A stretch of 64,000 bases of DNA from Sphingomonas sp. Leaf407 (lineage in GTDB: Bacteria > Pseudomonadota > Alphaproteobacteria > Sphingomonadales > Sphingomonadaceae). A program made the position numbers and the translations under genes. Of this stretch, positions 40,041 through 56,729 are shown piece by piece (positions within the stretch are counted from its first letter, which is position 1; each line of letters opens with the position of its first letter). Below the pieces are notes generated by a model. It was not told the origin of the DNA, made no database searches, and worked only from the letters and a program-made list of their open reading frames with translations. The stretch spans positions 248,001 to 312,000 of the forward strand of contig NZ_LMQO01000003.1 of NCBI RefSeq assembly GCF_001425385.1, read 5' to 3'.

Positions 40041-40147
40041 ATCTCTCCCCTCCCTGGCAGGGAGGGGTCGGGGGTGGGTCGGTGCGGGGCAGGCGCAGCG
40101 TTCCCGCGCGGGCCGACCCACCCCAACCCCTCCCTGTCAGGGAGGGG
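40041..40147. repeat. double-hairpin GC repeat, family A copy 2 (between chvI and chvG)
   Basis: The hairpin CCCCTCCC-TGGCA-GGGAGGGG (40046-40067) leads into TCGGGGGTGGGTCGG. A variable centre follows, then the complementary CCGACCCACCCCAACCCC and a second hairpin TCCCTGTCAGGGAGGGG. On the minus strand, which is transcribed, the arm at 40036-40055 supplies the ribosome binding site for chvG. The repeat interrupts what would otherwise be a closely spaced chvI-chvG pair. Confidence 0.88.
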
Positions 40148-42909: not shown

Positions 42910-43018
42910 CTCCCCTCCCTGACAAGGGAGGGGCCGGGGGTGGGTCGGCCCGCGAGGAAACGTAAGCGCTCCACAACCGGCCAACCCACCCCCGACCCCT
43001 CCCTTCCAGGGAGGGAAG
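42910..43018. repeat. double-hairpin GC repeat, family A copy 3
   Basis: CCCCTCCCTGACAAGGGAGGGG leads into CCGGGGGTGGGTCGGCC, then CGCGAGGAAACGTAAGCG and the complementary GGCCAACCCACCCCCGACCCC with a closing hairpin CTCCCTTCCAGGGAGGG. The CGGCCCGCGAGG-AAACGTAA centre is shared with copies 4 and 5. It occupies the 297-base gap between pckA and a small membrane protein gene and holds no gene; a frame starting at 42844 merely runs through it. Confidence 0.88.
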
Positions 43019-52023: not shown

Positions 52024-52131
52024 CTCCCCTCCCTGGCAAGGGAGGGGTGGGGGGTGGGTAGGCCCGCGAGGGAACGTAACGCCCGCCATTACCCGACCCA
52101 CCCCCAACCCCTCCCTTGCCAGGGAGGGGAG
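52024..52131. repeat. double-hairpin GC repeat, family A copy 4 (upstream of the RamB-like regulator)
   Basis: CTCCCCTCCC-TGGCAA-GGGAGGGG leads into TGGGGGGTGGGTAGGCC, CGCGAGGGAACGTAACG, then ACCCGACCCACCCCCAACCCC and a last hairpin CTCCCTTGCCAGGGAG. The arm GGGGAGAAAG (52126-52135) lies 7 bases before the ATG at 52143 and appears to be the ribosome binding site. It sits in the aceA-regulator divergent promoter region. Confidence 0.88.
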
Positions 52132-54351: not shown

Positions 54352-55563
54352 ATGCGTATCCTTCATGTTCTCGACCATGGGTTGCCGCTGCACAGCGGCT
54401 ATACGTTCCGCACCCGCGCGATCCTGACCGCGCAGATGGGGCGGGGGTGGGAGGTCGCCGCCGTCACCGGCCCGCGTCAGGGCGTGACGCAGACCCCGCG
54501 CGAAACGATCGACGGTATCGATTTCCACCGCACCGCGCCGATCGCCCCGTTGCCCTCGCCGCTCGGCGAAGTGCGTGAGATCCGTGCCTTCGCCCGGTCG
54601 ATCGAACGGGTGGTGGAATTGGTGAAGCCCGACATCCTCCACGCCCATTCGCCGGTACTCGGCGCGCTGGCGGCGATGGGCGTGGCGAAGCGCCATCGCC
54701 TGCCGCTGGTCTATGAAATCCGCGCCTTTTGGGAAGACGCCTCGGTCGGCAACGGCACCGGGACCGAAGGCTCGCTGCGCTACCGCGCCACCCGCGCGCT
54801 CGAAACCCATACGGTGCGGAAAGTCGACGGCGTCGCGGTGATCTGCGAGGGATTGCGGCGCGACCTGATCGCGCGCGGCATCGCATCGGACAAGATCATG
54901 GTGTCCCCCAACGGCGTCGACCTGACGCTGTTCGGCACGCCGCCGCCGCCCGACACCGCGCTCGCCGCCGAACTGGGCCTTGCGGACAAGGAGGTGCTCG
55001 GCTTCATCGGCAGCTTCTACGATTACGAGGGGCTCGACACGCTGATCGCGGCGATGCCCGCGCTAGTCGCCGCCCGCCCGAACGTCGCCCTCTTGCTGGT
55101 CGGCGGCGGGCCGATGGAGGCGGACCTGCGCGCCCGCGCCGCCGCCTCGCCGGTGGCCGATGCGATCCGCTTCGTCGGCCGCGTGCCGCACGATCAGGTC
55201 GAGTGCTATTACGGCCTCGTCGACCTGCTGGTCTATCCGCGCAAGGCAATGCGGCTGACCGACCTCGTCACGCCGCTCAAACCCTTGGAAGCGATGGCGC
55301 AGCGCCGCCTCGTCGCCGCGTCCGACGTCGGCGGCCACCGCGAGCTGATTCGCGACGGCGACACCGGCACGCTGTTCCCACCCGACGATCCCGCGGCGCT
55401 CGCGACCCGCGTCGCCGCCCGCCTCGCCGACCGCCGCGACTGGGACGCGATGCGCGATCGCGGCCGCGCCTTCGTCGAGCGCGAGCGCGACTGGGCGAGC
55501 AATGTCGCGCGCTACGAACCCCTGTACCAGCGGCTGATCGCCGCCAACCGATCGGACGGGTGA
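54352..55563 (+). CDS. family 4 glycosyltransferase, exosortase-A-associated type
   Basis: 403 residues. The start MRILHVLDHGLPLHSGYTFR and the WEVAAVTGPRQG and IRAFWEDASVGNGTGTEGSL motifs fit the PEP-CTERM/exosortase A-associated glycosyltransferase group (TIGR04063-like). The GT-B fold is also shown by VSPNGVDLTLFG, VLGFIGSFYDYEGLDTLI and PLKPLEAMAQRRLVAASDVGGHREL with the conserved E-x(7)-E region. It probably adds a sugar to a lipid-linked exopolysaccharide unit. No exosortase or polymerase gene lies in the window, so it is separated from such a cluster. No strong binding site precedes the ATG at 54352. Confidence 0.83.
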   Translation: MRILHVLDHGLPLHSGYTFRTRAILTAQMGRGWEVAAVTGPRQGVTQTPRETIDGIDFHRTAPIAPLPSPLGEVREIRAFARSIERVVELVKPDILHAHSPVLGALAAMGVAKRHRLPLVYEIRAFWEDASVGNGTGTEGSLRYRATRALETHTVRKVDGVAVICEGLRRDLIARGIASDKIMVSPNGVDLTLFGTPPPPDTALAAELGLADKEVLGFIGSFYDYEGLDTLIAAMPALVAARPNVALLLVGGGPMEADLRARAAASPVADAIRFVGRVPHDQVECYYGLVDLLVYPRKAMRLTDLVTPLKPLEAMAQRRLVAASDVGGHRELIRDGDTGTLFPPDDPAALATRVAARLADRRDWDAMRDRGRAFVERERDWASNVARYEPLYQRLIAANRSDG

Positions 55564-56588
55564 TGGCCACGACCCACGCGCCACGCCAACCGGGCCTGCC
55601 GCTCGCCCCCGCCGTCGCGGGGGTGGCCGGGCTGGCCGTCGTCGCGCTCGTCGCGCTCGTGCCCGCATGGCGGATCGAGGCGGCGGTGATGGCCAGCGGC
55701 CTGCCGGCGCTGCTCCCTGCCGCCGCCCCGCCGCTCGGCTGGACCGCGCGCGCCGGGCTGATGCTCGGCTTCGGCGGGCTGGTGACAGTGCTGCTGTGGC
55801 TGGGACTGATGCTGCTCGCGCCCGCTGCGGTCCTGCCGCTTCCGCGTCGCAAGCCCAAAGTAAAACCGCGCCGTGCCGAGGTCCCGCCCTCGGTCCGTCG
55901 CGCCGATGCCCATCCCGACGCGCCGCCGCGCCCGCCGGTCCGCGCCGACCGCGATCTCGGCGCGCCGTTCCTCGACACGCCGCTGGTGCCCGCCACCCCG
56001 GATGGCGAACGCACGATCCCGCGCGATCTCGACATGCCGCTGGCGATGTTCGATCCCGACGCGCTGCCCGCCGCCCCGGCCGCGCCGACGCCTACCGTCA
56101 AGCCGCTGTTCCGCCCCGATGCGGTGACGCTGCCCGAGGATCGTCAAACCGACCCGATTCCCCTCCCGGACAAGCGAGGGGCCGGGGATGAGTCGGCCGC
56201 TGAGGAAACGCTACCGCCAGCCCCGGAGCAACCCACCCCCGACCCCTCGCTTGTCGGGGAGGGGAGCAACAGCCGCCCCGAAGCAGGCACATCGAAACCC
56301 GATCCACAGTCCCGGCCGAAACCGACCGGCGAACCCTCGCTGTCGGCCCTCCTCGCCCGTCTCGACGAGGGGCTGTCGCGGCGCGATCCGCTGCCCGAAC
56401 CCCCGGTACAGGTCGAACCGCCAGCCCCGATCGCCCCGCAGGCTGCGCCCACGCCGATCACCACCTCCGAACCGCCACTACCACCCGAACCACCCGTCAC
56501 GCCCGAACCGCAGGCACCGCGCGTCCCCGCAGGGCTCGCCGCCACGCTCGGCCAGCTCCGCCGCATGGCCACCGGCGACAAGGAATAA
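55563..56588 (+). CDS. proline-rich membrane protein carrying an in-frame palindromic repeat
   Basis: 341 residues starting with the ATG at 55563, which shares a base with the preceding stop (TGATG). Two or three membrane helices (about residues 14-38 and 62-95) are followed by a basic RRKPKVKPRRAEV stretch and a long Pro-, Glu- and Ala-rich tail. Residues about 199-235 (PLPDKRGAGDESAAEETLPP, then APEQPTPDPSLVGEGS) come from a family A intergenic repeat that has kept the frame. The C-terminus VPAGLAATLGQLRRMATGDK may be a small helix. The function is unknown; its overlap with a glycosyltransferase suggests an envelope role. Confidence 0.75.
   Translation: MATTHAPRQPGLPLAPAVAGVAGLAVVALVALVPAWRIEAAVMASGLPALLPAAAPPLGWTARAGLMLGFGGLVTVLLWLGLMLLAPAAVLPLPRRKPKVKPRRAEVPPSVRRADAHPDAPPRPPVRADRDLGAPFLDTPLVPATPDGERTIPRDLDMPLAMFDPDALPAAPAAPTPTVKPLFRPDAVTLPEDRQTDPIPLPDKRGAGDESAAEETLPPAPEQPTPDPSLVGEGSNSRPEAGTSKPDPQSRPKPTGEPSLSALLARLDEGLSRRDPLPEPPVQVEPPAPIAPQAAPTPITTSEPPLPPEPPVTPEPQAPRVPAGLAATLGQLRRMATGDKE
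56158..56265. repeat. double-hairpin GC repeat, family A copy 5, inside a coding sequence
   Basis: CCCCTCCCGGACAAGCGAGGGG leads into CCGGGGATGAGTCGGCC, then GCTGAGGAAACGCTACC, ACCCACCCCCGACCCC and a last hairpin CTCGCTTGTCGGGGAGG. The layout and the CGGCC-GCTGAGGAAACG centre match copies 3 and 4 with a few substitutions. About 108 bases long, it adds about 36 codons without a stop. Confidence 0.87.
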
Positions 56589-56630
56589 GGGGCGTCCCGA
56601 CCCCTAAACTCCGATTTGTCCGAACCGAAG

Positions 56631-56714
56631 CGTCGCCCCAGCGAAGGCTGGGGCCTCATGCGGCTCCTGCCGTGCGCCATCACCGGGAGATCCCAGCCTG
56701 CGCTGGGATGACGA
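56631..56714. repeat. palindromic intergenic repeat, family C copy 3
   Basis: GCGTCGCCCCAGCGAAGGCT then GGGGCCTCATGCGGCTCCTG, matching copy 1 at 5864 almost base for base, and closing with GAGATCCCAGCCTGCGCTGG and GATGACG. It lies right after the Pro-rich protein gene. Together with family D copy 2 it explains the 401 bases without a gene at 56589-56989. Confidence 0.85.
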
Positions 56715-56729
56715 TTGTTTCAGGTTTAG

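Follow-up and report, generated by a model that had tools for sequence, protein, structure and literature searches.

In-frame palindromic repeats in protein genes of Sphingomonas

Sphingomonas sp. Leaf407 carries a palindromic repeat in frame within a protein gene of the window, the whole stretch of 64,000 nucleotides that was analysed, which lies at C3:248001-312000 of the genome. The element, called copy 5, lies on the plus strand at 56158-56265, is ~108 bp long with ends sure to 1-2 bp, and is in the broad sense a member of a dispersed palindromic repeat family, here family A. Comparison with orthologues indicates that copy 5 is a genuine lineage-specific in-frame insertion into a variable linker, and from its reading frame the host protein should carry ~36 extra residues. 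We consider it highly probable (about 0.9) that a non-autonomous palindromic repeat was inserted in frame, that such insertions pass through a filter of tolerance in the protein, and that the peptide has no selected role and the hairpin is conserved. Taken singly, copy 5 is a tolerated insertion and a modest finding. The genus-wide pattern is the more interesting part, as a variant of a known phenomenon and not a new kind.

Copy 5 and the family A repeat

Family A is built up by two inverted hairpins, with a 9-bp stem and a 4-nt loop in each, and a variable centre, together ~108 bp. The predicted fold of copy 5 (108 nt, an imperfect double hairpin) has an energy of -73.1 kcal/mol and a z-score of -6.45, and none of 200 shuffled sequences was equally stable. 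The 3.78-Mb genome holds family A at 95 or more places, a lower bound from a covariance-model search and two places found by BLAST only, with the best 150 of 2654 candidates scored. BLAST alone, on both strands and with the best 40 of 123 candidates scored, gave at least 66 matches. The family membership and double-hairpin layout proposed in the initial annotation are borne out by these results. Five copies had been claimed for the window, of which four were found: copy 5, 40046-40147 (minus strand) and 42910-43017 (plus strand), both intergenic by codon score, and 52024-52130 (plus strand) on the 5' side of an ORF.

The 95 copies in the genome have sharp ends and mostly unrelated flanks. When 29 of them were aligned, the stems were near-invariant and the centre variable, and 98.2% of the stem cells were paired versus 47-71% when the pairing was slid. 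Covariation did not exceed that of shuffles because the stems hardly vary; only one pair had changed on both sides, and it is changed in copy 5. The identity of copy 5 to a hand-typed consensus is 82%, the 14th lowest among the 95 (median 86%). Its closest DNA matches over the full 108 bp, including both arms, are 84-85% identical in the same genome and 86% in another genome. Under stricter filters the model matched 42 of 147 genomes sampled from the order. A search of Rfam rendered only matches below the gathering score, and plasmids gave no match to family A at the DNA or peptide level.

Many family A copies, copy 5 not among them, sit by eye in a longer palindrome with the ends CGACATTCA...TGAATGTCG, for example at C3:581002 and C2:19638 of the Leaf407 genome, which suggests sub-families or a composite repeat. 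Palindromes within palindromes are also seen in three copies (L151, L155 and L166, at C3:207274, C3:481097 and C4:322246), which contain a ~64-bp palindrome (AGTTTCGGGTGAACAGTGCCCCGCACTGTTCAGG...) at an identical position. A second palindromic repeat lies just downstream of the host gene (56627-56717 of the window) and carries CGTC close to one of its ends and GACG close to the other. It is 82% identical to an insert at site 2 of GlyS in another genome, G015.

Insertion into the linker of the host protein

The host gene (55563-56588, plus strand, 341 aa) has no Pfam match, and its start at 55563 forms an ATGA overlap with the upstream glycosyltransferase gene. The protein has two long N-terminal helices, hydrophobic as judged by eye, a DAHPDAP motif, a variable linker and two C-terminal helices. 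Copy 5 was confirmed in sequence, in coordinates and as an in-frame segment of ~36 residues without a stop, corresponding to about residues 199-235 and translated in the host frame as IPLPDKRGAGDESAAEETLPPAPEQPTPDPSLVGEGS. The structure model is weak (pTM 0.23, mean pLDDT 57), shows no order between the helix pairs, the element included, and has pLDDT values below 50 at residues 203-227 and 229-247; the linker is probably disordered. To this extent the model agrees with the disordered region assumed in the initial annotation, but the limitation of such inserts to a disordered tail does not hold, since loops of conserved enzymes are also hit.

Orthologues were compared at 42 loci, 13 of them close relatives and 29 from a broader search (matches in 52 of 100 genomes; 30 loci taken, L104 left out). 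The element peptide was found inside the gene in none of the 42 aligned orthologues. In the 13 closest the frame is homologous on both sides of the element and both conserved segments resume. The first conserved segment (56328-56387, plus strand, around PSLSALLARLDEGLSRRDP) is in frame in orthologues. The C-terminal one (56526-56585, plus strand, around GLAATLGQLRRMATGDKE) is in frame in the 13 closest and missing from several more distant orthologues. In an example orthologue these segments read PSIATLLDRLDRGLQRRR versus PSLSALLARLDEGLSRRD in the host and GLASALGALRRMA versus GLAATLGQLRRMA. When all 95 copies were compared with the 42 loci by BLAST no match fell within the gene, and the two loci that matched did so extragenically: a family A copy begins 46 bp past the ORF end at L046, and the match at L036 is near the locus end.

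The segment could also be native protein, rich in Pro and of low complexity, whose likeness to the repeat is one of composition, an alternative that the initial annotation had itself put forward for testing and that would suit the Pro-rich and variable linker of the orthologues. It is contradicted by a DNA match that spans the whole 108 bp with both arms in many copies, at up to 84-86% identity, and by the 42 orthologue loci, where no matching copy is inside the gene, set beside the 95 places in Leaf407 at which the repeat DNA is recognisable. The z-score of the fold also argues against a likeness of composition only, and we give native protein hardly any credence.

Openness of a frame is common in family A: among 570 strand and frame readings of the 95 copies, 327 contain no stop, and the length is divisible by three in 35 of 95. 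Openness alone was therefore not accepted, and coding sequence on both sides together with orthologues was required. A chance open frame was set aside for copy 5, which has coding sequence on both sides and orthologues without the element. An in-gene test based on a self-trained codon score (left coding score above 12, at least 20 open codons on the right, one open frame) was passed by one of the 95 copies, copy 5. Family A is overwhelmingly intergenic in its own genome, and a single in-gene copy counts against insertion followed by a filter.

Three more copies of the genome lie in open frames with little coding sequence on one side, C1:112101 and C1:298617 with left scores of 2.6 and 4.8, and C1:441272 with three codons on the right. 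At the last of these (L117:9864-9971) the copy appears to supply the C-terminal residues of a long ORF. Peptide matches in long open frames of the same genome (the longest of 619 aa, interrupted by a TGA) were reduced by the codon score to copy 5. C6:50837 was considered as an interrupted gene but reads as two distinct genes, and a stop codon lies at the edge of the element. When 654 kb of Leaf407 sequence, not including the GlyS insert of this genome, were scanned for repeats, 157 repeat intervals were obtained, with coding sequence on both sides at copy 5 only.

Inserts in ThiD, GlyS and other proteins

Further in-frame copies, which the initial annotation had proposed to look for, exist in other genomes of the genus. 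Sixty stretches from other same-genus genomes, taken because they matched copy 5 best or, in G010 and G173, matched the model best, contained 72 family A copies, and 17 of these at 16 loci (19 readings) were flagged as in-gene. Twelve copies at 11 loci were accepted: seven in ThiD, two in GlyS, and one each in an E2 acyltransferase, a glycosyltransferase and a siroheme-synthase-like gene. The E2 copy sits in the linker between the lipoyl and E3-binding domains. The glycosyltransferase and the siroheme-synthase-like gene, for which Pfam gives a short NAD-binding match only, probably carry the element in frame. Candidates at L193 and L233 were dropped as they look like antisense frames, and those at L218, L232 and L242 because of a negative right-hand score. 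A copy at L201:2506-2612 (G010) has coding sequence of the same strand, not in one frame, on both sides, and marks either an interrupted gene or two neighbours.

A ThiD search matched 292 of 295 same-genus genomes, and 29 of the best 30 loci, a non-random sample of top scorers for an insert-bearing query, could be parsed. The inserts lie between a helix ending in AAYLERLS and the strand LPIIFDPVM, and four types were found: family A or type A (SPLPEREGPGVGRPLGERDTSPKPTHPQPLPSREG) at nine loci in nine genomes, with an open reading in all nine, type B (FSREGGSPDWTPAFAGE) at 13, type C (RKRGP...EMGPRF-like) at three and type D (SPSPSGEGLGWG...PTPTPPLKGRG-like) at four. In 13 chosen same-genus rows KIGM and DPVM are 57-83 aa apart. 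For bacteria at large, 13 Sphingomonadales among them, 64 rows were parsed (80 loci surveyed, 16 unparsed), and 63 of these have a spacing of 37-42 aa; the exception is ThiD of Chakrabartia godavariana, with a fifth insert type. The insert is not universal in the genus, as 16 of 20 same-genus genomes, Leaf407 included, are insert-free at this site. The other four have short in-frame remnants (G024 and G102), type B (G267) and type D (G142). Records titled Sphingomonas in the wider bacterial survey are also insert-free.

As DNA, the type A inserts match 168-173 places in the 1.1 Mb compared, with known duplicates removed, and on the same basis type B matches 8-13 places, type D 81, 5, 82 and 4, and type C ten (L279), three (L273) and none (L276). 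For the two type D rows that reach 81-82 places the matches are mostly to family A, at 71-74%, and from this similarity the two may be distant relatives of it. A structure model of an insert-bearing ThiD has a mean pLDDT of 70 and ~30 in the insert, and its best PDB matches are phosphomethylpyrimidine kinases. A second insertion site is occupied in L366 (G142) and L380 (G173) by the peptides VRPERVEG...STGSARTG and VRPELVEG...STSSARTEG, which from their sequence look like another repeat family.

The nine family A inserts in ThiD look as if a single orthologous insertion had been retained in nine species. A ThiD tree of 62 rows, with the remnants of G024 and G102 counted as lacking an insert, has 13 label changes, and types A and B interleave with five and six changes, of which well-supported branches force only one (A) and three (B). 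The same pattern could arise if species had exchanged thiD alleles.

GlyS beta was studied in the best 16 same-genus loci, that of Leaf407 included, of which 15 were parsed (L405 left out). At site 1 all 15 rows have a peptide of 34-59 codons, of at least six types by eye, and all of these inserts but that of G014 (14 of 15) match dispersed DNA in the compared set, the best match spanning only 44-46 nt in three cases. Match coordinates show a gap of at most 51 nt at this site in four same-genus genomes (G001, G002, G006 and G013) and in 14 genomes of seven other families. Nine rows have long inserts, by eye, at site 2, and all six that were measured match dispersed DNA. One same-genus genome has family A in frame twice within a single GlyS beta gene. 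The Leaf407 gene itself has a 177-nt in-frame insert (L406:1870-2046, C4:133124-133300), a nested pair in which a 64-bp palindrome lies within a CCCTCTCCCC repeat. Both parts have further places in the genome, the inner one also within three family A copies.

Selection on the ThiD inserts differs between peptide and nucleotide level. In nine type A rows the insert has a dN/dS of 0.89 (bootstrap 0.45-2.01) against 0.11 before and 0.24 after it, and in eleven type B rows 0.78 (0.44-1.57) against 0.12 and 0.16 in the flanks. Values at four-fold sites of type A are 0.289 in the flanks, 0.015 at predicted-paired insert sites (17 sites) and 0.197 at unpaired ones (6 sites); the corresponding values for type B are 0.286, 0.054 (12 sites) and 0.528 (2 sites). 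None of 20000 random flank draws was as low as the predicted stems in either type. Because the stem prediction used these same rows, it is biased towards conserved columns, and the two orthologous groups represent one gene in one clade. Whole-insert means, which are independent of predicted pairing, are 0.062 (A) and 0.121 (B), with equally low flank draws in 0 and 49 of 20000. A high dN/dS together with little silent change implies that the peptide is nearly free and the palindrome held. A function of the stems may hold them, but conversion by other copies or a low rate of mutation in the stems may do so too.

These values speak against recruitment of the inserted peptides for a function at the protein level, with the family spreading as a source of protein parts. 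Such recruitment might explain why the same family A insert is open in ThiD of nine of nine genomes and why insertion sites recur across the genus. However, the dN/dS of 0.78-0.89 is well above the 0.11-0.24 of the flanks, although the bootstrap reaches down to 0.44, unlike peptides share one ThiD site, and that site is reduced to remnants in G024 and G102 and empty in most of the 20 genomes. Recruitment is accordingly regarded as very improbable.

Even less probable is that the palindrome is absent from the mature product, through ribosomal bypass of the hairpin or removal of the segment from RNA or protein. That the hairpin persists in the nucleotides as the peptide changes, and that a tRNA synthetase subunit is among the genes hit, would be compatible with this. 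Skipping would, however, free the frame and the stops, and against this the inserts parsed in ThiD and GlyS, remnants included, all have an open reading in frame, an argument limited in that the parsing demanded an open frame and might have missed broken copies.

A more far-reaching version of tolerated insertion is that palindromic families of the genus turn over at fixed permissive sites of important proteins, and that the hairpin, not the peptide, is actively maintained within coding sequence, by a role of the mRNA or DNA hairpin or by conversion, so that coding copies stay live members of the family. This is a tentative proposal, with the odds somewhat against it.

Mechanism and relation to known repeats

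In the preferred reading, tolerated insertion, some trans-acting process would have copied family A into the host gene in the ancestry of the window species. Insertions into genes would mostly be lost by purging; the survivors would be stop-free, have a length divisible by three and lie where the protein tolerates ~36 extra residues, as in linkers and surface loops. The peptide would have no selected role and the DNA or RNA hairpin would be the conserved part. One such filter might act on several palindromic families in the genus, and the permissive loops of ThiD and GlyS would then fill with different families, sometimes nested.

Besides the single in-gene copy of Leaf407 and the many same-genus genomes with no insert in ThiD, two results count against this explanation. 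Firstly, a search for a mobilising enzyme of the Y1_Tnp (RAYT) type gave no match in Leaf407, the same search being positive in five of 14 control genomes; Y1_Tnp is present in three of 37 same-genus genomes. Secondly, a scan of the 95 copies gave no convincing target-site duplication, as would be expected of a MITE in the strict sense: the best excess was 18 of 95 versus 12.9 expected (k=2, 36 offset pairs), with single cases only at k 5-7 and none at k 8-9.

REPINs consist of two inverted hairpins with a variable centre, in about 100 dispersed copies. Family A resembles the REPIN/RAYT system in its two inverted hairpins, variable centre and ~100 dispersed copies, but differs in that its genome is without Y1_Tnp and the family without a tag motif. 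GTAG/CGTC REPs are likewise short palindromes with small stems and loops and units within ORFs, as far as described, but neither tag is in the family A consensus, and each tag, in either strand form, is within 30 nt of an end in only 1-3 of the 95 copies. Other ThiD inserts may belong to these REPs; L273, for instance, holds CGTCATCCCCGCGAAAGCGGGGA.

Passages of PMC3733652 describe CGTC REPs with stems of 8-9 bp, loops of 4-5 bp, head-to-head dimers and no dedicated transposase, and argue that REP insertions in linkers or loops may be neutral. They also report that GTAG/CGTC REPs occur inside ORFs of several phyla, with tRNA synthetases of 'E. lithoralis' and 'S. alaskensis' among the cases (PMC3733652), so the rarity of such cases outside Rickettsia was overstated in the initial annotation. 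REPs inside ORFs have thus been on record since 2013, apparently for Sphingomonadales too, and there is a possible overlap with GlyS, the passages naming no specific synthetase. The two species are presumably Erythrobacter litoralis and Sphingopyxis alaskensis.

Rickettsia palindromic elements are, in the parts of the sources consulted, 100-150 bp long, both intergenic and in frame in conserved proteins, and form ten families in Rickettsia conorii (PMC10969869, PMC2229807). Family A is similar in its ~108-bp palindrome and its intergenic as well as in-frame locations in conserved proteins, and its in-frame insertion in protein genes whose orthologues lack the insert is the behaviour of these elements. 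It differs in that the host is free-living and GC-rich and that several families share the same protein sites. In-frame palindromes are described from Rickettsia, enterobacteria, Neisseria and Coxiella in passages of PMC2229807, PMC10969869, PMC2759123 and PMC5896051, and a reference title in PMC2229807 concerns Wolbachia palindromic repeats. ERIC, Correia/NEMIS and the Coxiella QMITE are, according to passages of PMC2229807, PMC2759123 and PMC5896051, also miniature palindromic repeats with occasional in-frame fusions, but their hosts are unrelated to Sphingomonas, and PMC2229807 lists target duplications for both ERIC and Correia, whereas none is clear for family A. Among the papers listed in a literature search of titles and abstracts, with few subscription journals covered, none dealt with family A as a protein insert, inserts in ThiD, family turnover at one site or constraint on stems within genes.

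Palindromic repeats within proteins are discussed mainly for Rickettsia, whereas here they occur in a free-living genus and one enzyme loop holds several unlike repeats. The ThiD and GlyS system of Sphingomonas makes it possible to test what moves the repeats, how permissive a site is and whether a hairpin within an ORF is neutral. It also calls for caution, because an insert rich in Pro or Gly in a Sphingomonas protein may represent repeat DNA and not a protein domain.
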